Part shown: piece by piece, positions 3,036-36,723 of the stretch
Layout of the letters: the number at the start of each line of letters is the position of its first letter
Position numbering within the stretch: position 1 is the stretch's first letter
Assembly (NCBI RefSeq): GCF_014930455.1
Contig: NZ_JAAIYO010000001.1
Span: 930,001 to 994,000 of the forward strand
Direction: 5' to 3'
Source: Corallococcus soli
GTDB taxonomy: Bacteria > Myxococcota > Myxococcia > Myxococcales > Myxococcaceae
Length of the DNA: 64,000 nt
Translations under genes and position numbers: made by a program
The notes under the pieces: model-generated
Told to the model about the DNA's origin: nothing
What the model saw: only the letters and a program-made list of their open reading frames with translations
Database searches by the model: none

Positions 3036-11781
<8,746 letters not shown>

Positions 11782-11801
<20 letters not shown>

Positions 11802-17170: not shown

Positions 17171-17685
17171 ACAGGGGTCCTTTCGGTCCGGGTTGGGCGG
17201 AGGGGACACTCGGCGCGCGAAACTCCTTCCCGGGGGCCCTCGCCCGCCAACCCCCTGTCCTTCGTGCGCTCCCTGGGACGCCTGCTGGGGCAAGAGGGAC
17301 GCAGGGGCCTGCCGCCCGTCACTTCCCCAGGCATGCCGAAGCGCGTGATTCCGGGAGGATGCGGGCGCTCAAACCTTCCAATGACAGCAGGCGTGCGGAC
17401 GAGCCCCCGAGCGTCATCCCCCCAACAGCCTGACGGCCCGGCGTCCCGTTCTCCGCTCGCGACAGCGTCGGGATGAAGGTCTTTTTCAAGATCGGCGGAG
17501 GTGCCCGTCTATTGATTCGTGGGGACCGAAAAACATCCGACATGTTTGAATTTTCACCGGCTTGCTGCCCACCGCGTCATGGGACGCCTGCTGGGTGGGG
17601 ACGGGGCCGGGTCGGCGTTCGTCGGGGCTTGGTGTAGAACGGGCGTGAGGGGCGGCGGTCAGGGGGAGGCGCCCGAGGGGAACGC
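17171..17685. other. 515-bp divergent intergenic region, promoters for lyase and CHAT genes
   Basis: No convincing gene. The stretch 17480-17560 is markedly AT-richer than its surroundings and probably holds a promoter for the CHAT gene. It includes an inverted repeat, AAACAT (17531-17536), 5 bases, ATGTTT (17542-17547), that could be an operator. The decamer GACATGTTTG (17539-17548) recurs with one change upstream of the serine protease (15994-16003). Confidence 0.45.
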
Positions 17686-20451
17686 ATGGTGAAGCCGGCG
17701 AAGAAGATGCTCTGGGCGCTGGCGCTGGCCATCCCCCTGGTGACGGCCGGAGTCGCGGCCGTGAAGCCCGCGGCGACGCCGCCCCCCGTCACCGACAACT
17801 TCTGGGTGGAGCGAAGGGCGGCGGCCCGCATCGAGGCCCGCCTCACGCACCCGGAAGCGGATCGCTACCGCTCGCGCGCACCGGCCGGCGGGTGTCCCGT
17901 GCCCGCCGAGCCGATGCCCCTGGGCCCGCTCGCCCGCATGGAGGCACGGGAGGACTGGAGCGGCATCGCGGCCGCGTACGCGCTGGAGGCGGAGTGGAAC
18001 CAGGCGGCCTCCTTCCTGGAGCGCATGCCGGCCTCCCCGGAGCGCGACAGCGACCTGGGCGCGGTGGCGCTCGCGCGCGGCGACCATGAGCGGGCGCTGC
18101 GGCTGCTGGACGGCGCGCTGGCGGCGAAGCCGAACCTGCCGCAGGCCCTGTGGAACCGCGCGCTGGTGTTCCGGGAGATGGGCCTGACGCTGCGCGCGTC
18201 GGAGCTCTTCGAGCAGGTGGCGAAGCTGGGCGAGCAGGGCTGGAGCCGCGAGGCCCACGCCCAGGCGCTGTCCCTGCGCGACAGCACGCTGGAGCGCCAG
18301 CGTCAGTGGCAGGCGGCGCGCGACGCGACGAAGGCCCTGATGGAGGACGCGAACGCGCCGCTGCCGCTGGATGCGGCCCGCCAGCTTCCGGGCACGGTGC
18401 GCGGCGTCTTCTACGACGTGGTGCGCAGCGCGGCCTCCAAGGAGCGCGCGCAGGCGCTGCTGCCGCTGGCGAAGGAGCTGGACCGCGTGCAGGGCGGCAG
18501 CACGCTCACGGACTACGTGCAGCGCGTGGCGAAGCGCGACTTCCGCCGTCGGGGAGAGCTGGCGCGGCAGTACGCGGCGGCGATGCGCGCGGGCGGCGCG
18601 ATGCCCGAGGGCTTCCTGGACCGGGCGCGGCTGTCCGGCGACGAGGACCTCTACATGGGGGCCCTGCTGCGCACGCGCAACGGGACGATGAACCACCTGA
18701 AGGACGTGGTGGAGCGCATCAAGCGGATGGACGACCCCTGGTTCACGTACATCGCGGAGCGCGACCAGGCCTTCAAGGAGGTCTCCGACGGCGCGTGGTG
18801 GAAGGCCGAGCAGCGGCTGTTCTCCGCGCTCCAGCGCTGCCGCGAAGGCACGCTGTCGGTGCGCTGCCTGGAGCTGGAGCGGCGGCTGGCGGTCTTCTAT
18901 TACGACATGCAGCGCGTGACGGAAGCCGAACAGCACGCGCGCGTGCTGTGGGCCGGGGCCCGGCAGCTTCGCGAGTGGGACCTGGAGTTCAACGCCCTGG
19001 AGTCCCTGAGCCAGGTGGCGCGCTCGCGCAACGACCTGGGCAGCGCCCGCGCCTATCTGGAGGAGTGGATGGCGCGCGGCCCCACGCGCAGCTGCGCGTG
19101 GCCGCACGTCCAGCTGGCCCACCTGCACTACCTGGACCTGCGGCCCGCGGACGCGCGGCGGGAGCTGGACACCGCCGCCGCCTGCGCGGACAACCCCATG
19201 GAGCTGGTGTTCGGCGCCACGCTCGCGGAGCTGACGCGCTCCGGCTCCGGCCCCAAGGACGCCGAGTGGATGCAGCGCATCACCGCCCGGGCGGTGCAGG
19301 GCCCGGCGGTGGTGGGCGGCGACCGGGTGTACGCGCAGTACCTGGAAGGCCGCTACCACCTGGAGCAGGACCGGGCGCGGGGCGAGGCGCTGCTCAAGAC
19401 CGTCATCGCGGAGGCGGATGCGCTGCCGCGCGGGGATGCGCTGGCGCGCGAGTCCTGGGCGCTGGCCTATTCGTCGCTCGCGGTGGACGCGGGCCGCGCG
19501 GGGGAGTTCCCCAAGGTCGCGACGTTGCTGGCCGCGCAGCTGGGCACGCCCGTGCCCACGCGGTGCGCGCTGGCCGCCAGCGTCCACGCCGAGCGCGCCG
19601 TGCTGGTGGCGCTGGGGCCCAAGGGCGAGGTGCGGGGCCACTACGACAGCGCGCGCCGTGAGCCCTTCGCGCGGGCGGACTCCTCCCGGCTGGTGCCGGA
19701 GGCCCTGCGCAAGACGCTCTCCACCTGCGACCGCGTGGACGTGCTCGCGTGGGCCCCCGTCTTCGGCCGGACGGACCTGCTGCCCTCGGACATCGCATGG
19801 AGCTTCCGCCTGGGCCGCGCCGCGCAGGGGACACCTTCCACGCCGGGCTCCAGGCCCGCGCCCGCGCGTCGCCTGGTGGTGGCCGGCGTGGAGTCCCCTT
19901 CGCTGTTGAACCTGCCCCGGCTCCCCGCGTGGACGCCGGACGCGGAGCCGGGGGCCGCGCCGCCGGACGTGCTGTCCGGTTCGGACGCCACGCCCTCGCG
20001 CGTGCTGGCCCGCATGGCGGACGCCACGGAGATTGAAATCCACGCGCACGGCATCACCGACCCCAGCATCTCCGGCGCGTCGCTGGTGGTGCTGTCGCCG
20101 GAGGTGAACGGCCGCTACGCGCTCACCGCGGACGTGGTGCGCGAGACGCGGCTCACCGGTTCGCCCACCGTGTTCCTGGCCGCGTGCAGCGCGGGCCGCA
20201 CCACGGCCCTGCAGAGCACGGAGCCCTTCAGCCTGCCGGCGGCCTTCATCGATTCAGGCGCTCGCGCGGTGCTGGCCTCCACCGTGGACATCCCGGACGC
20301 GGCGGGCCGCTTCTTCGACGGCGTGCGCCGCCGCATCCACGCCGGCTCGCCCGCCGCCGTCGCGCTGCGCGACGAGCGTCAGGCGTGGCTGTCCCGCGAC
20401 GCGCGCGCCGGCTGGACGCGCTCCGTGCTGCTGGTGGAGAAGGCGGACTGA
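17686..20451 (+). CDS. Periplasmic TPR-CHAT protease (caspase-like), partner candidate of the sigma/anti-sigma pair
   Basis: 921 residues. An uncleaved or cleavable N-terminal helix (about 8-25) puts the rest in the periplasm. Residues about 38-200 form a TPR-like sensor module (GIAAAYALEAEWNQA, ALRLLDGALAAKP, QALWNRALVF, LFEQVAKLGEQGW), followed by a long helical-repeat region. The C-terminal CHAT domain (about 700-921) has the catalytic pair of caspase-fold proteases: H788 in IHAHG and C834 in FLAACSAG. The sensor module is paralogous to the periplasmic part of the anti-sigma factor at 22454-23317. CHAT proteases are activated by partner binding and cleave specific proteins. An obvious hypothesis is that this one cuts, or competes with, the anti-sigma factor. 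Confidence 0.9.
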   Translation: MVKPAKKMLWALALAIPLVTAGVAAVKPAATPPPVTDNFWVERRAAARIEARLTHPEADRYRSRAPAGGCPVPAEPMPLGPLARMEAREDWSGIAAAYALEAEWNQAASFLERMPASPERDSDLGAVALARGDHERALRLLDGALAAKPNLPQALWNRALVFREMGLTLRASELFEQVAKLGEQGWSREAHAQALSLRDSTLERQRQWQAARDATKALMEDANAPLPLDAARQLPGTVRGVFYDVVRSAASKERAQALLPLAKELDRVQGGSTLTDYVQRVAKRDFRRRGELARQYAAAMRAGGAMPEGFLDRARLSGDEDLYMGALLRTRNGTMNHLKDVVERIKRMDDPWFTYIAERDQAFKEVSDGAWWKAEQRLFSALQRCREGTLSVRCLELERRLAVFYYDMQRVTEAEQHARVLWAGARQLREWDLEFNALESLSQVARSRNDLGSARAYLEEWMARGPTRSCAWPHVQLAHLHYLDLRPADARRELDTAAACADNPMELVFGATLAELTRSGSGPKDAEWMQRITARAVQGPAVVGGDRVYAQYLEGRYHLEQDRARGEALLKTVIAEADALPRGDALARESWALAYSSLAVDAGRAGEFPKVATLLAAQLGTPVPTRCALAASVHAERAVLVALGPKGEVRGHYDSARREPFARADSSRLVPEALRKTLSTCDRVDVLAWAPVFGRTDLLPSDIAWSFRLGRAAQGTPSTPGSRPAPARRLVVAGVESPSLLNLPRLPAWTPDAEPGAAPPDVLSGSDATPSRVLARMADATEIEIHAHGITDPSISGASLVVLSPEVNGRYALTADVVRETRLTGSPTVFLAACSAGRTTALQSTEPFSLPAAFIDSGARAVLASTVDIPDAAGRFFDGVRRRIHAGSPAAVALRDERQAWLSRDARAGWTRSVLLVEKAD

Positions 20452-20456
20452 GCGGG

Positions 20457-21464
20457 CTAGAAGGGGGCGTCCAGGTGCGTATTGCCGCCGGGAACGAGGA
20501 AGTGGTGGAAGGTGACGCTGGCGCTCACGTCCAGCGCCTTCACCCAGTGCCACCAGCCCACCGGCAGGAACACCATGTCCCCGGGCTCCAGCACCGTCTC
20601 CAGCACGGAGGCCTGCGCGAACAGCGGGTGCGCGGTCAGGTCCGGCTGGCCCGCGTCCACGTGGCTGAAGGTGCCCCGGTGCGGGTAAACGCGGTGACGC
20701 TCGTAGGACGGCACCAGCTTCACGTGCTTGCGGCCCAGCACCTGGCCCAACAGGATGTTCATGTTGTCGTGGTGCAGCGGGGTGACGGTGCCCGCGGGCC
20801 CCAGCAGCAGGGTCATCATGTCCGCCTGCAACGACGGATCAATGAGCCCCGCTGGCGCGCGCAGGTCCTCGCGCAGCGGCGACAGGCCCTCGTGCCGCCA
20901 GTTGTCGTTGCGCGGCACCATGTAGTAGTCGTTCGTCTCCCGGCCGGACTCCACCATGTCGAGGAAGTCCGCGAAGGGCATCCGCGTGCGGTGCCGGTCG
21001 TGCTGGGCCGCGTGCTCCGGGTTCGCGTCGCGCCCCATCATCACCTCCACCTCCACCGCGCCGAAGCGTTCGCGGAAGTAGGACGGCGACCACTTCTGGA
21101 GGGCCGGCCAGTCCTTCATCAGGCCGCGCAGCACCACCGGCCGGTGGCCGAAGTAATAGCGGCGGAAGAACTCCTCCGGCGCAATCCCCTCGCGCACCTC
21201 CAACTGGCGGCCGCCGTCCTGGGCCCGCAGCTCGCTGTAGACGTCCATCAGCGACTCCAGCCACCCGAAGTGCCGGGCCACCTGGAGGCACGCCTGGAAG
21301 TAGGGGTGCTGACGCACCGCCGCCATCTCCTCGCGGGCCAGCGCGGGGTCCACCCCCGCACCCATCAGGACCTGCTCCACGTCTTCCGGCCCTACCCCCA
21401 GGGCCAGATTCTCCGCCAGCCACTGGCGCCACTCCGGACGCAGCAGGGACTTGTCCTCGTTCAT
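20457..21464 (-). CDS. JmjC/cupin_8-type Fe(II)/2-oxoglutarate-dependent oxygenase
   Basis: 335 residues. The N-terminal 100 residues are helical; the rest is a JmjC-like double-stranded beta-helix. The metal site is visible: HxD in TPLHHDNMN and the distal His in VGWWHWVKALD. The co-substrate-binding GRKHVKLVP follows the first motif, as in FIH-like hydroxylases. Bacterial relatives hydroxylate side chains of proteins or peptides. It has a good Shine-Dalgarno (AAGGAG, 7 bases before ATG). Its stop is 5 bases from that of the CHAT gene, and it starts 149 bases from a possible small peptide gene on the other strand. The target is unknown; a sequence neighbour is the natural first guess. Confidence 0.85.
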   Translation of the reverse strand: MNEDKSLLRPEWRQWLAENLALGVGPEDVEQVLMGAGVDPALAREEMAAVRQHPYFQACLQVARHFGWLESLMDVYSELRAQDGGRQLEVREGIAPEEFFRRYYFGHRPVVLRGLMKDWPALQKWSPSYFRERFGAVEVEVMMGRDANPEHAAQHDRHRTRMPFADFLDMVESGRETNDYYMVPRNDNWRHEGLSPLREDLRAPAGLIDPSLQADMMTLLLGPAGTVTPLHHDNMNILLGQVLGRKHVKLVPSYERHRVYPHRGTFSHVDAGQPDLTAHPLFAQASVLETVLEPGDMVFLPVGWWHWVKALDVSASVTFHHFLVPGGNTHLDAPF

Positions 21465-21612
21465 TCAGAACTCCTTGAAATTCTTGAAGGATTGGCCCAG
21501 GGGGGCCCCTCCTTCCGGTGCGCCGGGGCATGGTATGGACTGGCCCCGTTCCGTCTTTTTCTACCCATCCCATGCTTACGCCGGACTTCCGTCGTACCAG
21601 GAGAAGTGATCC

Positions 21613-21789
21613 ATGACCCCCGGAGACATGTCCTCTGCCCGACCCGGAGCTTTCGAGCCTGACCACAGCGCCCCACATGTGAAGGGCTCCTACGTGAACT
21701 GCGAGCAGCGCGAGCCGCGCGCGCGCCGCCGTCCCCTGCCGCCGCCTCCGGTCCCCGCCCTGCTGGCGGGGGGGGACGTCGCCCGGTGA
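21613..21789 (+). CDS. Putative 58-residue small protein with Pro-rich tail
   Basis: This frame is too short for most gene callers but has AGGAGA at 21599-21604, 8 bases before the ATG. The peptide has an acidic/neutral first half (MTPGDMSSARPGAFEPD), a single Cys (SYVNCEQ), an Arg-rich patch, then a run of six prolines. It begins divergently from the JmjC oxygenase and ends 110 bases before the sigma factor gene, so it may share the sigma transcript. No family is recognised. It could be an oxygenase substrate, a regulator of the sigma system, or spurious; the ribosome-binding site is the main evidence. Confidence 0.4.
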   Translation: MTPGDMSSARPGAFEPDHSAPHVKGSYVNCEQREPRARRRPLPPPPVPALLAGGDVAR

Positions 21790-21899
21790 GCGTCCTGCCC
21801 GGCGGGCCTGTCCGCGCTTCCGGGCATTTTTCTCTCAAGAAACAGAGCGGTCGGCGTCTTTAGTCAGGAAGCCCACCAGTCACTTCGGGTCCTTGCGTC

Positions 21900-22457
21900 A
21901 TGGCCAACCTCTTCAACCGGGAACGGCGCCAGTTCGATGCGTTCAGCCGGCGACACCGGCCCAGCCTGCTGGCCGTGGCCCGCCGGTTGTGCGCGCGCGG
22001 CATCCTGGATCCAGAGGACCTGGTCCAGGAGGCCTTCGAGCGGGCGTTGCCGGAGTTCGGCCACTTGAAGGACCGCACGGAAGCGGCGTGCGCGGCGTGG
22101 CTGTGCACGACGATGACGAACCGGTTCCTCGACCACTGCCGCCGGCAGCGGACGGAGGTCCGGGGGCTGCCGCACCTGGCGCTGGTCCAGGACCTGCCCG
22201 CGACGGGGGATGGGGATCAGGAGAACTGGGAGCTGGTGGGCAATGCCGCCTTCCAGGCGGCCATCGAGCAGCTCAAGCCGCACCTGCGGGATGCGTACAA
22301 GCTGCACGCGGAAGGCCACCGCTACCAGGCCATTGCCGAGCATTTCAACGTCCCCGTGGGCACCGTGGGCAGCTGGCTGACGCTGGCGCGCCGGGACCTG
22401 AGGGAACTGCTGCTTCCGAGCGTCGCCGTGGCCCGGGAGCGGGGAGTCCAGTCATGA
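21900..22457 (+). CDS. RNA polymerase sigma factor, ECF type, paired with zinc-finger anti-sigma factor
   Basis: 185 residues with region 2 (FDAFSRRHRPSLLAVARRL, DPEDLVQEAFERAL, WLCTTMTNRFLDHCRR) and region 4 (LKPHLRDAYKLHAEGHRYQAIAEHFNVPVGTVGSWLTLARRDL). No Shine-Dalgarno is obvious before the ATG. The stop overlaps the next start (ATGA), the usual coupling with an anti-sigma gene. The upstream AT-rich stretch (about 21826-21872) may be an autoregulated promoter. Together with the anti-sigma factor and the nearby TPR-CHAT protease it looks like an envelope-signal response unit. Confidence 0.9.
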   Translation: MANLFNRERRQFDAFSRRHRPSLLAVARRLCARGILDPEDLVQEAFERALPEFGHLKDRTEAACAAWLCTTMTNRFLDHCRRQRTEVRGLPHLALVQDLPATGDGDQENWELVGNAAFQAAIEQLKPHLRDAYKLHAEGHRYQAIAEHFNVPVGTVGSWLTLARRDLRELLLPSVAVARERGVQS

Positions 22458-23317
22458 ACGCGCATTGCACCAAGCTGCACCTCTTCATGGACGGAGAGCT
22501 GTCCGAAGCGGATGCGGAAGGCTTCCGGCACCACCTGCCGCGCTGCCCCGGCTGCGAAGGGGGCCTCCGCGACCTGCTCCAGCTGGAGCTGCTGGCGGCG
22601 CGGGCGCTGGGGACGGGCGTGGTGGAGCAGCCGGTGGAGCAGCCCCGGAGCAACGTGGTGACGCTGGGCGCGTGGGTGCGCCGCAACGCCCGCGTGGTGG
22701 CGCCGCTGGCGCTGGCCGCCAGCCTCTGCGCCGTCATGGTGCCGCGCATGATGCCGGTGGCGGAGGTTCCGGCGGTGGTCTTCCTGGAGGACCAGTCCAC
22801 GCGCGCGCTGGAAGCGCGTGTGTCGCACCCCCGCGCGGACAAGTGGCGCCTCTACGTGCCCATGCGCGGCAGCGGCAACCCGGGCGCGGAGCTCTCCGAG
22901 TCCCCGCCGCCGCTCCCGCTGCGCCCGCTGGCGGAGATGGAGGAGCGCAAGGAGTTCCGCGGCATCGTCGCGGCCTACGTGCTGCACGGCCAGTGGCAGC
23001 AGGCGCAGGCGGTGCTGGTGCGCGAGCCCGCGTCGCTTTCGCGCGACAACGACCTGGCGGTGGTGGCGCTGCACGAGGGCCGCTTCCAGGACGCGCTGAG
23101 CCTGCTGGACCCGGTGGTGCGCGCGGATCCGGAGCACGCGCAGGCCCTGTGGAACCGCGGCCTGGCGCTGTTCGAGCTGAAGCAGTACGCGCGCGCGGCG
23201 CGGGACTTCGAGCAGGTGGCCGCCCTGGGCGAGCCCGGCTGGAGCGACGAGGCGCGCAAGCGGATGGGCAACGCGCTCAAGCAGGCGCAGCAGCAACAGG
23301 CCCCCGCGGCCCCCTGA
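22454..23317 (+). CDS. Anti-sigma factor: zf-HC2 domain, TM helix, periplasmic TPR module
   Basis: 287 residues. The cytoplasmic N-terminus is a zinc-binding anti-sigma domain: H near residue 29 with CPGC just after (HHLPRCPGCEGG), preceded by LFMDGELSEADA. A single transmembrane helix (about 78-96, APLALAASLCAVMVP) leads to a periplasmic TPR region (about 110-275). That region matches residues 38-200 of the CHAT protease in order: EARVSHPRADKWR, PLAEMEERKEFRGIVAAY, ALSLLDPVVRADP, QALWNRGLALF, FEQVAALGEPGW. About half of the positions in the best 60 residues are identical by eye. Known zf-HC2 proteins hold their sigma factor at the membrane until cleaved or switched. Confidence 0.9.
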   Translation: MNAHCTKLHLFMDGELSEADAEGFRHHLPRCPGCEGGLRDLLQLELLAARALGTGVVEQPVEQPRSNVVTLGAWVRRNARVVAPLALAASLCAVMVPRMMPVAEVPAVVFLEDQSTRALEARVSHPRADKWRLYVPMRGSGNPGAELSESPPPLPLRPLAEMEERKEFRGIVAAYVLHGQWQQAQAVLVREPASLSRDNDLAVVALHEGRFQDALSLLDPVVRADPEHAQALWNRGLALFELKQYARAARDFEQVAALGEPGWSDEARKRMGNALKQAQQQQAPAAP

Positions 23318-31654: not shown

Positions 31655-32899
31655 ATGCGCCTGCTGCACACGTCGGACTGGCACCTGGGCCACACGCTGT
31701 ATGACGTCTCGCGGGAGGCGGAGCACACCGCGTTCCTGACGTGGCTGCTGGCCACGCTGGAAGCGGAAGAGGTGGACGCGCTGCTGGTGGCCGGGGACAT
31801 CTTCGACACGGCGAACCCCAGCGCGGAGGCGCAGGCGGCCTGGTACCACTTCATCGCGCGCGCGCGCCGCGTCCTGCCGAAGCTGGACGTGGTGGTGGTG
31901 GGCGGCAACCACGACTCCGCCGCGCGGCTGGACGCGCCGGATCCGCTGTTCACCGCGCTGGGCGTGCGCGTGGTGGGAGGGCTGCCGCGTCACCAGGGCG
32001 CGCTGGAGCTGGAGCGGCTGGTGGTGCCGGTGCACGACGCGCGCGGGAAGGTGGGCGCGTGGGTGGCGGCGGTGCCGTACCTGCGGCCTTCGGACCTGCC
32101 GCCGGTCCCGGACGCGACGGTGGACCGGCTGGTGGAGGGCGTGCGCTCCGTGTACGCGGAGGTGCTGGACGGGGCGCGCAGGCGGCGGCGCTCCGGGCAG
32201 GCGCTGGTGACGATGGGCCATTGCTACATGACGGGCTCGGAGCTGTCGGAGCTGAGCGAGCGGAAGATATTGGGCGGCAACCAGCACGCGCTGCCGGTGG
32301 ACTTGTTCCCGGAGGACGTCGCGTACGCGGCGCTGGGGCACCTGCACAGGGCCCAGCGCGTGGGCGGCCGCGAGGGCGTGCGCTACAGCGGCTCACCGCT
32401 GCCGCTGTCCCTGTCGGAGGCGCACTACAAGCACCAGGTGTTGCTGGTGGACATGGAGGACGGGGCGCTCCAGCAGGTGCGTTCGCTGGCGGTGCCGCGC
32501 ACGACGGACATGGTGCGGGTGCCCGCCCGGGACGCGCTGGCGCTCGCGGACGTGCTGGAGCTGCTCGCGGCGCTGCCCGCGTGCGAGCCGGGGATGCCGG
32601 AGTCGATGCGGCCGTACCTGGAGGTCTGCGTGTCGCTGCCCCGGCCGGAGCCGGCGCTGCGCCACAAGGTGGAGCACGCGCTGGAGGGCCGCGCGGCGCG
32701 GCTGGTGAAGCTGACGCCCTTCTACACGGGGACGGGCGGGGCGCTGGCGGACGTGCGGCCGGGGCTGTCGCTGCGGGAGCGCACGCCGGAGGACGTGTTC
32801 CTCGCGCGGTATGCGCGGGACTTCAAGGAGCCGCCCACGCCGGAACTGCTGGAGTCGTTCCACGCGCTGCTCACCCAGGTGCAGGAGGACGCGCCGTGA
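31655..32899 (+). CDS. sbcD: Exonuclease SbcD (Mre11-like nuclease subunit)
   Basis: 414 residues from the ATG at 31655 (GAGGGAGGG just upstream). It carries the five metallophosphoesterase motifs: TSDWHLGHTL, GDIFD, GGNHD, GHCYMTG and GHLHRAQ. With SbcC it forms the Mre11-Rad50-type complex that opens hairpins and trims blocked DNA ends, needed for repair and replication of palindromes. It overlaps sbcC by four bases (GTGA). Confidence 0.96.
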   Translation: MRLLHTSDWHLGHTLYDVSREAEHTAFLTWLLATLEAEEVDALLVAGDIFDTANPSAEAQAAWYHFIARARRVLPKLDVVVVGGNHDSAARLDAPDPLFTALGVRVVGGLPRHQGALELERLVVPVHDARGKVGAWVAAVPYLRPSDLPPVPDATVDRLVEGVRSVYAEVLDGARRRRRSGQALVTMGHCYMTGSELSELSERKILGGNQHALPVDLFPEDVAYAALGHLHRAQRVGGREGVRYSGSPLPLSLSEAHYKHQVLLVDMEDGALQQVRSLAVPRTTDMVRVPARDALALADVLELLAALPACEPGMPESMRPYLEVCVSLPRPEPALRHKVEHALEGRAARLVKLTPFYTGTGGALADVRPGLSLRERTPEDVFLARYARDFKEPPTPELLESFHALLTQVQEDAP

Positions 32900-35800
32900 A
32901 GATCCTGGCGATTCGCGGCAGCAACCTCACGAGCTTCGCCGGGGAGTTCAAGCTGGAGCTGGACCAGGCGCCGCTGGACCGGCTGGGGCTGTTCGCCATC
33001 TCCGGCGCGACGGGCGCGGGCAAGAGCACGCTGCTGGATGCGCTGTGCCTGGCGCTGTTTGATCGCACGCCCCGGCTGGGCGGGCCCAGCAAGGTGCTGG
33101 TGGGGCGCGCGGACGAGGAGGAGGAGGCGCGCCTGTCGGCCTACGACGTGCGCGGCATGCTCCGGCGGGGCGCGGGCAAGGGCCACGCGGAGGTGGACTT
33201 CCTGGGCAAGGACGGGCGGCGCTACCGCGCGCGCTGGAACGTGTGGCGGGCGCGCGAGCGCGCCGAAGGGCGCTTCCGGCCGCAGGAGCTGAGCCTCACG
33301 GACGTGGCCACGGGGCAGCTCCACGGCCGCACCAAGGGCGAGGTGCTCCAGGCGATTCAAGAGCGGCTGGGGTTGTCCTTCGACCAGTTCCGCCGCTCGG
33401 CGCTGCTCGCGCAGGGGGAGTTCGCGGCGTTCCTGCGCGCGGACGCGAACGAGCGCGCGGAGCTGCTGGAGCGGATGACGGGCACGGAGGTGTACAGCCG
33501 GCTGTCCGTCGCGGCGCACAAGAAGAACGCGCTGGAGCAGGAGGAGTTGACGCGGCTGTCGCACGGGCTCGCCGCCATCGCGTTGATGTCGGACGCGGAG
33601 CGGGAGGTCGCGCGCGTCCAGTTGGGGGAGGAGGAGGCCGCGCGGGTGCGGGAGGAGGCGCGGCTGCGCGACGCGGAGGCGGCCCGGTCCTGGTACGCGC
33701 TGCGCGCGGAGCTGGTGGGGCAGGAGCAGGCGTCCGACGTCGCGGTGACGCGGGCGGTGACAGAGTGGGAGGCGGCGGCGCCGCGTCAGGCGCTGCTGGA
33801 GTCGGTGCGCGCGGCGGAGGGCTTCCGCGCGGTGGTGTCGGCGGTGGAGACCGCGGAGCAGCGCTGCGTGGTGGCGGAGGCCGAACAGGTCGCCCGCGCG
33901 TCGCAGGCGGAGGCGGCGCTCGCGGCGTCGGCGGCGCAGCGCCAGGCGCGGATGCAGGCGGAGGTGGCGAGGGCGGCGGCGCAGGAGGCGGAGGCGCAGG
34001 TGCGTCCGGCCCTGGAGGAGGCGGCGAGGCTGGACACGCGGCGCGCGGAGGCCGAGCGCGAGGCCCGTGAGACCGCGGAGCTGGCGAAGCAGGCCCGCGC
34101 GGCGGAGACCACCGCGCAGGAGGCGCTGGCGCTGGTGCAGGCCGCGGAGGCCAGGGCCCAGGGGCTGGTGGACGCGGCCCAGGCGTGGCGCGCGTCGCAT
34201 GCGACCTGGGAGCCCCTGGCCACGGAGTGGCCCCGCTGGCAGCGGGAGCTGGAGCGCTACGCGGGAGCGCTCCAGGAGGAGCAGGCCGCGGGGACGGACG
34301 CGGACCGGCTGGGCGGGGACGTGGACCGGCTGGGCGGCGAGACCCAGGCGCGGCGCGAGGAGCACCAGGGCGCGGTCGAGGCCGAGGCGCAGGCGCTGGC
34401 CCTGGCGACGCACGCGGAGGCGGCGCTGGGGGACGACGGCGGCGCGGCGCGACGGGCGCTCCGGGAGGCCCTGCTGGCGAGGCAGGAGGCGCTGGGCGCG
34501 CTGGCGCTCGCGGGTGACGGGGCGCGGGCGGAGGGCGCGGCGGAGGGGGACGCGGACGCGGAGGTGAGGTCGCACCGCGAGGCGTCCGCGCGCGCGGCGG
34601 GCGAGGCGCGGGACGCGGCGGCGCGGCGGGCGACGCAGGAGGCGATGCTCCAGGAGGCGCGGCGGGCACAGTCCCGCGCGGAGGCGACGCAGGGCCTGGC
34701 CTCGCACCGGGCCGCGTTGCATGAGGGCGAGGCCTGCCCGCTGTGCGGCGCGCTCGAACATCCGTATGCCCGGGAGGGCGCGGCGCTGGAGGGGCTGGTC
34801 GCGGAGGCGGCGGCCCGGGTGGGGGAACTGGAGTCGGCGCGGGACGTCGCGGCGAAGCAGGAAGGCGCCGCGAGCGTGCGTCAGGCGACGTCGGACACGG
34901 CCGCCACGCAGGCGGAGGTCCGGCGCGACACGGCGGCCCGCAGGCGCCAGGGACACCAGGAGTCCTGGCGCACGGCGCGCGAGCGGTGGCTCCGCGCCGT
35001 GCTGCCCGGCACCGAGGCCTCCTCGGGGCATCCGGAGTCCCGCGCGGGAGACGCGCTCCCTCCGGAGCACGCGGAGGCCCCCACCACGCAGGGGTGGACC
35101 CGGAGCGCCCAGGAGGACGTGCGCGTTCGGCTGGTGACCCTGCGCGAGGAGGAGGCGTCCGCGGAGGTCCAGGCCGCCGCCGCGCGAGAGGCCCGTGCCC
35201 TGCTGGAGACCCGGCGCACACGGCGCGAGGGCGCGGCGGAGGCCCTGCGCAGGGCCGAGGATGCCCTTGCCCGCGCGGTGCAGGACCACCGGGAGGCGCT
35301 CCTCCGTCGTGAGACGGCCAGCGCGTCGCGACAGCGCGCCCTCACGGAGGTGGCACCCCCCTTCGCCAACGAGACGGCCGTCTGGCAGGAGAAGCTCGCG
35401 GAGGACCCGGCCCTCTTCCAGAGCCGCTGTCTGGCGCGCGTGACGAAGTGGCGCGAGCGCGTCGTGGAGCTCGAAGCCGCGCAGAAGCGCTTTGATGAGG
35501 AGCAGGGCCGCCGTGCCCGGGAAGAGGTCCGCCTCCAGTCCCGACGGGAGGAGGCGGACACCGCGTCCGCGCGCGCGGGCCTCAAGGACGCGGCCTTCCA
35601 GGAGGCGTCACAGGCCCGGGGGCGCCTGCTCCAGGGCCGCCCCACGCAGCAGGTGCGCGCGGAGGTCCAGGCCCGGCTCGACGCGGCCGTGGACGCCTAC
35701 GAGCGCGCCCGCGAGGCCTCCGAGGCCCTCCAGCAGGCGGAGAAGGTGGCCACCGCGCGCGCCGAGGACGCGGTGCGCCTGCGCGCCGAGGCCGTGCTCG

Positions 35801-36723
35801 CGCTCGACAGCGCCCAGGCGGTCCTCGCGGAGCGCCTCGCCGGACGTGGCACCACGCTGGAGGAGTTGAAGGCCCTGCTGTCGCGCGACGCCGCCTGGTG
35901 CGACGGCGAGGCGCGCGCGCTCGACGCCCTGCGCGAGTCCGTGGCCCTGGCCCGCGCCGTGCTGGTGGAGCGCCGGGAGCGCCGCGTCCGCCATGAGGCG
36001 TCGGGCCTGCCCGCGCTGGCGGAGGCCGACGTCGCGGCCCTGCGCGAGCGCTTCCTGTCGGACGTCGAGGTGCGCCGCCACGCGGAGGCCATGCTGCGCG
36101 CCCGGCTGGACAACGACGACGCGTCCCGCGCACGACACGGGGCGGAGGCCCGGGCCCTGGAGCTGCGGCGCGGCGAGGCGGAGGTGTGGAAGACGCTGGG
36201 CGACCTCATCGGCTCCCACGACGGGAAGAAGTTCAAGGTGTTCGCCCAGAGCCTCACGCTGGACGCCCTGCTGCTGCACGCCAACGCGCACCTGCGCGAG
36301 CTGGCGCGCCGCTACCGGCTGGAGCGCGTGCCCGGCCACGACCTGGACCTCCAGGTGGTGGACGGCGACATGGGCGACGAGGTGCGCAGCGTGGCCAGCC
36401 TCTCCGGCGGTGAGAGCTTCCTCGTGTCGCTGGCGCTCGCGCTGGGGCTGGCCTCGCTGTCGTCGGAGACGACGCAGGTGGAGACCCTCTTCATCGACGA
36501 GGGCTTCGGCACGTTGGACCCGGAGACGCTGGAGGTGGCGCTGGCCACGCTCGACGCGCTCCAGGCCACCGGCCGGCAGGTGGGCATCATCTCCCACGTC
36601 AGCGGGCTGGCGGAGCGCATTGGCGTGCAGGTGCGCGTGGTGAAGCAGGGCGGCGGTCGCAGCCGGCTGGTGGTGGAGGGCGACGCGGGCCTCGTCGTGC
36701 CGGAGGGGCAGCAGGTGGCGTGA
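32896..36723 (+). CDS. sbcC: Exonuclease SbcC (Rad50-like ATPase)
   Basis: 1275 residues from a GTG overlapping the sbcD stop, with GGAGG upstream. Walker A is GATGAGKST near residue 40; the Q-loop region follows in LLAQGEFAAFL. Two long Ala/Glu/Arg-rich coiled coils flank the zinc hook CPLC (near residue 613). The signature motif is SLSGGESF and Walker B is LFIDEGFGTLD. It is longer than the E. coli protein (1048), mainly through expanded coils. The ATPase head clamps DNA and controls SbcD nuclease activity. Confidence 0.95.
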   Translation: MKILAIRGSNLTSFAGEFKLELDQAPLDRLGLFAISGATGAGKSTLLDALCLALFDRTPRLGGPSKVLVGRADEEEEARLSAYDVRGMLRRGAGKGHAEVDFLGKDGRRYRARWNVWRARERAEGRFRPQELSLTDVATGQLHGRTKGEVLQAIQERLGLSFDQFRRSALLAQGEFAAFLRADANERAELLERMTGTEVYSRLSVAAHKKNALEQEELTRLSHGLAAIALMSDAEREVARVQLGEEEAARVREEARLRDAEAARSWYALRAELVGQEQASDVAVTRAVTEWEAAAPRQALLESVRAAEGFRAVVSAVETAEQRCVVAEAEQVARASQAEAALAASAAQRQARMQAEVARAAAQEAEAQVRPALEEAARLDTRRAEAEREARETAELAKQARAAETTAQEALALVQAAEARAQGLVDAAQAWRASHATWEPLATEWPRWQRELERYAGALQEEQAAGTDADRLGGDVDRLGGETQARREEHQGAVEAEAQALALATHAEAALGDDGGAARRALREALLARQEALGALALAGDGARAEGAAEGDADAEVRSHREASARAAGEARDAAARRATQEAMLQEARRAQSRAEATQGLASHRAALHEGEACPLCGALEHPYAREGAALEGLVAEAAARVGELESARDVAAKQEGAASVRQATSDTAATQAEVRRDTAARRRQGHQESWRTARERWLRAVLPGTEASSGHPESRAGDALPPEHAEAPTTQGWTRSAQEDVRVRLVTLREEEASAEVQAAAAREARALLETRRTRREGAAEALRRAEDALARAVQDHREALLRRETASASRQRALTEVAPPFANETAVWQEKLAEDPALFQSRCLARVTKWRERVVELEAAQKRFDEEQGRRAREEVRLQSRREEADTASARAGLKDAAFQEASQARGRLLQGRPTQQVRAEVQARLDAAVDAYERAREASEALQQAEKVATARAEDAVRLRAEAVLALDSAQAVLAERLAGRGTTLEELKALLSRDAAWCDGEARALDALRESVALARAVLVERRERRVRHEASGLPALAEADVAALRERFLSDVEVRRHAEAMLRARLDNDDASRARHGAEARALELRRGEAEVWKTLGDLIGSHDGKKFKVFAQSLTLDALLLHANAHLRELARRYRLERVPGHDLDLQVVDGDMGDEVRSVASLSGGESFLVSLALALGLASLSSETTQVETLFIDEGFGTLDPETLEVALATLDALQATGRQVGIISHVSGLAERIGVQVRVVKQGGGRSRLVVEGDAGLVVPEGQQVA

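Follow-up and report, generated by a model that had tools for sequence, protein, structure and literature searches.

A split DdvA-type anti-sigma factor with a separate CHAT protease gene in Corallococcus soli

Why do a putative protease and an anti-sigma factor that are encoded close together share a long stretch of sequence, and do the two act on the same sigma factor? This question is raised by positions 17686 to 23317 of a 64-kb stretch of Corallococcus soli DNA (contig NZ_JAAIYO010000001.1, positions 930,001 to 994,000), here called the window. An initial annotation, made from the sequence alone, had called genes for a CHAT protein, an extracytoplasmic function (ECF) sigma factor and a zf-HC2 anti-sigma factor in this interval and had described them as a candidate new signalling unit. 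The analysis reported here indicated that the locus encodes a DdvA, a transmembrane anti-sigma factor, in two pieces, of which one has kept the sigma-binding end and the other the protease, because many relatives carry all of the parts in one chain and because DdvA, a member of the family with a solved structure, matches. The fused, DdvA-type anti-sigma factor is already known; what is new is the split form, together with a proposed regulatory loop in which the same motif precedes both genes.

The two halves of a DdvA-type anti-sigma factor

The protease part of the split system is a TM-TPR-CHAT protein of 921 residues (transmembrane helix, tetratricopeptide repeats and CHAT), encoded on the forward strand at 17686-20451 (Pfam CHAT, 2.1e-14). 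Also on the forward strand, its gene specifies an N-terminal membrane helix or signal peptide (residues 8-26; 17707-17763; hydropathy 2.18), a TPR module (residues 38-200; 17797-18285) and a CHAT domain (PF12770; residues 730-906; 19873-20403); the protein itself lacks a zf-HC2 end. The ECF sigma factor gene (21900-22457, forward strand, 185 residues) matched Sigma70_r2 (5.6e-14), Sigma70_r4_2 (1.1e-11) and NCBIfam sigma70-ECF (1.9e-20). Its stop is overlapped by the start of the anti-sigma factor gene (22454-23317, forward strand), which follows directly and encodes 287 residues comprising a zf-HC2 domain (PF13490, 3.5e-7; H27-x3-C31-x2-C34), a membrane helix at 81-99 and a TPR module at 110-280 (TPR_16, 3e-10), with no CHAT part. 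These coordinates and Pfam domains agree with the three genes as they had been called, although a cupin_8/JmjC-like gene on the reverse strand between the two halves (20457-21464; Cupin_8, 6.3e-43) had gone unmentioned. The single membrane helix that had been proposed for each protein was also found, and its position could be set right as N-terminal in the CHAT protein and central in the anti-sigma factor.

Relatives were sought with both proteins in 59 related genomes, and 40 stretches were read. In many relatives a single protein of about 1000 residues combines zf-HC2, a single membrane helix, the TPR module, an extended helical middle part (MID) and CHAT. Rows of this fused kind have an ECF sigma gene directly upstream in 61/61 cases; the two locus sets overlap (e.g. 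L064/L107 and L069/L133), and duplicates remain both in these 61 rows and in the 55 CHAT-only rows considered below. A profile made from the CHAT alignment matched PDB entries 8rot and 8rw5 over nearly the full length (E 6.5e-291), and also 8rlz, 'Antisigma factor DdvA'. The PDB titles read 'Cryo-EM structure of the transmembrane anti-sigma factor DdvA' and 'Symmetry expansion of dimeric transmembrane anti-sigma factor DdvA', and the dimeric state of DdvA is known here from the title alone. The AlphaFold model of the window CHAT protein (predicted local distance difference test, pLDDT, 87.7) aligned to DdvA with Z 40.7 over 864 residues (CHAT 32-918), followed in the structure ranking by Csx29 (22.6) and separase (19.2), and the sequence match to DdvA by phmmer was 2.1e-119. 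The window anti-sigma factor (model pLDDT 85.6) aligned to DdvA over residues 3-273 (1.9e-14).

DdvA belongs to the DdvA/DdvS pair of Myxococcus xanthus, in which it is the anti-sigma factor of an ECF sigma factor and, like the window system, has a zf-HC2 end, a membrane helix, TPR, MID and CHAT. DdvA is one chain, whereas the window protease and anti-sigma factor have separate genes, so that the window departs from the DdvA type in not being a single polypeptide while the remaining DdvA-type parts are present across its two proteins. The window further differs from DdvA in the cupin-like gene that occupies the 1.4-kb gap before the sigma gene, and in a CHAT gene that has a sigma-type promoter motif of its own. 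According to published work (PMC4374960), inactivation of DdvA renders DdvS active, and the inactivating signal is described there as unknown. Searches of the open-licence literature gave no report of a split system of the DdvA type or of protease activity in DdvA, so absence from print is unproven. The idea of a wholly new unit was dropped once the PDB search found DdvA; that the genes form one functional unit was supported by their linkage, the fused relatives and the motif, and the proposed link to a sigma factor was supported as well.

A parallel had also been drawn to type III-E CRISPR, in whose Csx29/Csx30/CASP-sigma system a TPR-CHAT protease cuts an inhibitor of a sigma factor and thereby changes transcription (PMC10028731). 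Csx29 (Craspase) is indeed a fold relative, sharing the TPR-CHAT fold with the window CHAT protein (7y83; Z 22.6, 339 residues aligned, root-mean-square deviation 3.6), but it is more distant than DdvA, and Craspase was ruled out as the closest relative by its Z of 22.6 against 40.7. The Csx29/TPR-CHAT structure rows have 8-11% identity to the window protein. Csx29 is activated by RNA together with Cas7-11, whereas the window CHAT protein is probably outside the cytoplasm. PADLOC had no match for the four genes of the locus, the only part of the window that was screened for cas genes.

CHAT residues 12-190 and anti-sigma residues 85-267 align in order with 81/186 identical positions (44%; BLASTP E 4e-34; phmmer 9.3e-39), which confirmed the ordered match that had been seen by eye. 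The common module spans part of the membrane helix, a non-TPR stretch (EAR-x-S/T-HP-x-AD) and TPR repeats. When the anti-sigma factor was used as the query, the window CHAT protein scored 123.7 bits, compared to at most 35.8 bits, among the matches listed from the 59 genomes, for proteins of about 685-940 residues that match at the TPR end only (anti-sigma residues about 178-283). The anti-sigma model aligned to the DdvA module with Z 21.2-21.6, and the best other TPR protein reached Z 14.2. Generic TPR likeness was ruled out as the source of the module match by the BLASTP E value, the gap in bit score and the fold Z, and similarity beyond generic TPR, which the initial annotation had supposed, was thus found.

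Each protein has one hydrophobic helix (CHAT 8-26; anti-sigma 81-99) that is preceded by three K/R and no D/E, and positive charge lies on the N-side of the helix in 15/15 anti-sigma rows and in seven Corallococcus CHAT rows. The cysteines of the CHAT protein are present or absent in pairs, with C385/C394 in 41/42 rows and C627/C681 in 42/42 rows of alignment A2, and with C70/C470 together in 14/14 split CHATs and 0/28 other rows, a pattern that fits an oxidising place outside the cytoplasm. Helix charge and paired cysteines suggest that both modules are probably outside the cytoplasm, in line with the location first proposed. The H788/C834 pair reported for the CHAT domain (codons 20047-20049 and 20185-20187, forward strand) is intact in the window protein and invariant in the 42 rows of A2, and the corresponding columns hold H and C in 51/51 CHAT domains of a comparison that left out eight loci repeating longer ones. 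On the anti-sigma side, H27, C31 and C34 are invariant in the 29-row alignment A3.

A promoter-like motif before the sigma and CHAT genes

Alignment of upstream regions showed TCAAGA-N14-CGTCT before both the sigma gene and the CHAT gene. In the window these ECF-type promoter-like sites, both on the forward strand, read CTCAAGA-N14-CGTCTTT before the sigma gene (21834-21861) and TTCAAGA-N14-CGTCTAT before the CHAT gene (17485-17512). The pattern YTCAAGA-N14-CGTCTWT had exactly two matches in the 9.4-Mb genome, at window positions 21834 and 17485, and with one mismatch allowed a search of the window still gave these two sites only, compared to 0.01 per shuffled window. Across 16 Corallococcus genomes, 30 exact matches were found, of which 16 lie before sigma genes (16/16 genomes) and 14 are of the CHAT kind. 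Twelve of these 14 are directly linked to the CHAT gene, and two, which lie on neighbouring contigs, were identified from their spacer. The two genomes that lack a CHAT-kind site have a CHAT gene that begins at a contig edge.

The sigma-gene site of the Myxococcus-type loci reads CTCAAGG. A drifted CHAT site is kept in 5/9 Myxococcus-type loci with upstream DNA, and the five loci that have both sites carry the identical A to G change at the seventh base in both. A matrix trained on the sigma promoters of three groups, which is a less circular test of the CHAT site than pattern counts, ranked it above all other positions in the 64-kb window except the sigma site and one position that overlaps the latter. 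Because the exact matches are restricted to these two kinds, transcription of both the sigma operon and the CHAT gene is most likely driven by the sigma factor.

The CHAT gene is also preceded by a second conserved block, TTGGTGTAGAAC (17629-17640, forward strand), which is extended -10-like. The sequence TTGGTGTAGAA occurs once in the window and in 19/21 CHAT upstream regions, among them the four that lack the first motif, and the second block may be a basal promoter.

A further drifted-motif site, with like spacers and away from the sigma and CHAT genes, was observed at L211, L222 and L223 in three genomes of group g39, which was taken as Myxococcus/Pyxidicoccus. Judged by the motif, this site is a possible extra member of the regulon.

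Distribution and origin of the split

A scan of named genomes kept 77 family loci, which came from Corallococcus, Myxococcus, Pyxidicoccus, Citreicoccus, Archangium, Hyalangium and unclassified Myxococcaceae, as well as from a Kofleriaceae metagenome-assembled genome and from one record titled Comamonas. The last of these (L183) is a split locus at Myxococcus-like identity in a record that is probably mislabelled or contaminated, and it was counted among the Myxococcus-type loci. The family occurred in 66/193 sampled genomes of the phylum, with 65 of the 66 in the window's own family; no more than four candidates were scored per genome, so the copy numbers are to be read as minimum values. The CHAT - sigma - anti-sigma arrangement was found in Corallococcus, Citreicoccus, Myxococcus and Pyxidicoccus, a neighbourhood conserved in relatives as had been anticipated. 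In 14/16 Corallococcus genomes a single contig carries both CHAT DNA and the anti-sigma gene; in G003 and G015 the two are on different contigs. Sigma and anti-sigma genes follow downstream of the CHAT gene in 19/55 CHAT-only rows; among the other 36, several begin at a contig end and are probably cut fused proteins, and L137 and L143 end too early. Myxococcus xanthus has a split locus (L131, strain AM003).

The cupin_8/JmjC-like gene is a conserved neighbour of the split halves. It was present, sitting between the halves, in 37/38 loci searched by tblastn, a count in which loci from one genome overlap. The locus without it is L092 (genome G029), where CHAT, sigma and anti-sigma genes stand in a row. 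Some cupin_8/JmjC-like enzymes hydroxylate proteins.

Ten Myxococcus-type anti-sigma factors retain about 165-190 MID residues (E 3e-28 to 7e-26), and the Corallococcus anti-sigma factors stop after the TPR module. Compared at the sequence level, the fused, MID-remnant and TPR-only anti-sigma factors look like a decay series from the fused form. Trees built from the TPR part only group both halves and the L092 pair without any fused protein (92/78; 83/84), and one duplication is a possible origin of both halves. The L092 pair may be an independent or older form, and branches there are long. Two complete units of a sigma gene and a fused anti-sigma-CHAT gene were observed in tandem at L108, L109, L110, L111, L119 and L121, and such tandem fused units are a possible route to split systems.

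The genus has a second short anti-sigma factor (284 residues), whose nearest relative is a fused protein (100/98) and which, by this placement, is a separate event. At L063, L070, L076, L080, L085 and L089, this second system consists of a sigma factor, a zf-HC2 frame and then the zf-HC2-TPR anti-sigma factor. A second CHAT protein of the genus (944 residues) is encoded elsewhere in the genome than the second short anti-sigma system, and its upstream region holds a sigma70-like TTGTCA...TAGACT (by eye). Another wired regulon, made of the 944-residue CHAT protein and the 284-residue anti-sigma factor, was considered and found to be unsupported by the upstream alignments.

Elsewhere in the window, the forward strand encodes a hybrid non-ribosomal peptide synthetase-polyketide synthase of 2921 residues (3036-11801), with condensation, adenylation, ketosynthase, acyltransferase and thioesterase domains, and an SbcC/Rad50-like ATPase of 1660 residues (31741-36723).

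A proposed mechanism and its rivals

Our tentative reading, to which we give slightly less than even weight, is that the locus encodes a split, self-wired DdvA-type membrane anti-sigma factor with a separate CHAT protease and positive feedback. The zinc-finger end of the anti-sigma factor would hold the ECF sigma factor at the inner membrane. In the fused form, a TPR scaffold and a CHAT (caspase/separase-like) protease follow on the same chain, beyond the inner membrane; in the window, the sigma-binding end and the protease are apart, on two proteins that each have a membrane helix and the first TPR module. The halves may pair outside the cytoplasm through the common module, as two DdvA chains may do, and CHAT protein present at a basal level would pair with the anti-sigma factor before the signal. 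An envelope signal would then activate the CHAT part, the anti-sigma half would be cut or remodelled, and the sigma factor would be released. Free sigma factor would transcribe its own operon and the CHAT gene, giving more of all three proteins and hence positive feedback. The apparent control of the CHAT gene by the sigma factor is a point against a simple 'protease first' model. A more specific version, possible but doubtful, is that a DdvA-like dimeric anti-sigma/protease underwent duplication, after which one copy gave up the protease function and the other the anti-sigma function. This would turn a homodimer into an obligate heterodimer of a sigma-locking chain and a caspase-like chain that cuts its former twin outside the cytoplasm. 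A freed sigma factor that makes more protease would, on the duplicated-dimer scenario, create a one-way, bistable envelope switch.

ECF54 sigma factors have CHAT, subtilase or carboxypeptidase genes nearby, and proteolytic regulation has been proposed for them; they are described as having no anti-sigma factor (PMC8999054). The window resembles ECF54 in having a CHAT gene near an ECF sigma factor and is set apart by its zf-HC2 anti-sigma factor. In the RseA/DegS/RseP and RsiW systems, a cut outside is followed by further processing and sigma release (PMC10028731). These systems would be the working analogue of the window system. DegS is a serine protease and unrelated, whereas the candidate first protease of the window is a homologue of the anti-sigma factor itself.

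Several results weigh against a split, self-wired system with positive feedback. If expression of the CHAT gene requires the sigma factor, the protease could start the response only where a basal promoter, perhaps that at 17629, supplied it. A tree of a longer stretch does not join the two halves (joined tree, approximately unbiased test p-AU 0.313) and moves the L092 CHAT to the fused proteins, and for the CHAT helix the surrounding charge is uninformative in rows from Citreicoccus and of the Myxococcus type. The alignments of the two sites had supplied the motif before any counting, so that the genome counts test rarity and conservation, not discovery. In the 16 Corallococcus genomes, 13 one-mismatch matches lie elsewhere, compared to eight with the reversed pattern; two of the 13 come in look-alike pairs common to two genomes. 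The CHAT-side motif is missing in 4/9 Myxococcus-type loci (L124, L130, L132 and L161) and has a weak -10 (CGTT) in Citreicoccus. The three-group matrix scored the CHAT site at 5.0 standard deviations and the next site at 4.3, a small margin, and a matrix trained on Myxococcus-type promoters alone ranked the CHAT site fourth. The drifted pattern, which misses CHAT sites ending in C, had 26 exact matches in 18 of 20 g39 genomes and none in G121 and G138; the 26 comprise 18 at sigma genes, two at CHAT genes, three like-spacer sites elsewhere and three single. Finally, no sigma gene was found beside the 944-residue CHAT gene, and comparison by eye of its upstream regions (eight loci) with those of the second-system sigma gene (seven loci) gave no common motif.

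The main rivals to this reading are a CHAT protein that acts as an output protease and one that closes a negative loop. As an output of the pathway, the induced CHAT protease would cut other extracytoplasmic proteins, another protease, or a ligand bound to the TPR module of the anti-sigma factor, would free the sigma factor, and the common module would reflect descent only. The sigma-type motif of the CHAT gene, which is the only exact match besides that of the operon in Corallococcus, suits such a role, as do CHAT-only paralogues without an adjoining sigma gene, whose existence indicates that CHAT parts can probably work alone. We nevertheless consider an output protease rather unlikely, since the protease and the anti-sigma part form one chain in 61 rows, which makes a regulatory role simpler, and since the CHAT gene has no such motif in four Myxococcus-type loci.

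In a negative loop, sigma-induced CHAT protein would compete for, or destroy, the partner or signal that activates the anti-sigma factor, and so reset the system. The common module and the sigma-type motif suit a homeostatic loop as well as a positive one, but active-site residues kept in 51/51 domains exceed what a decoy would need, even though a protease could also destroy the partner; negative feedback appears unlikely. That the genes are neighbours with related TPR modules and no common pathway, the CHAT-side motif being read by another sigma factor, is very improbable. The absence of that motif from four Myxococcus-type loci and a paralogous 944-residue CHAT protein without such wiring speak for unconnected genes; against them speak the persistence of the linkage in four genera, the restriction of exact motif matches to two kinds in each genome, and an identical change in the two sites of another genus.

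To our knowledge, a sigma factor is usually freed by a protease that has no kinship with the anti-sigma factor it cuts. In the window, by contrast, candidate protease and anti-sigma factor resemble parts of a single type of protein, which in many relatives is still one chain, and a bacterial relative of caspase and separase looks wired as a target of the sigma factor over which it may have some control. In the split form the sigma-locking and protease activities are naturally apart, so that the role of CHAT in DdvA-type anti-sigma factors is open to single-gene deletions, also in Myxococcus xanthus.

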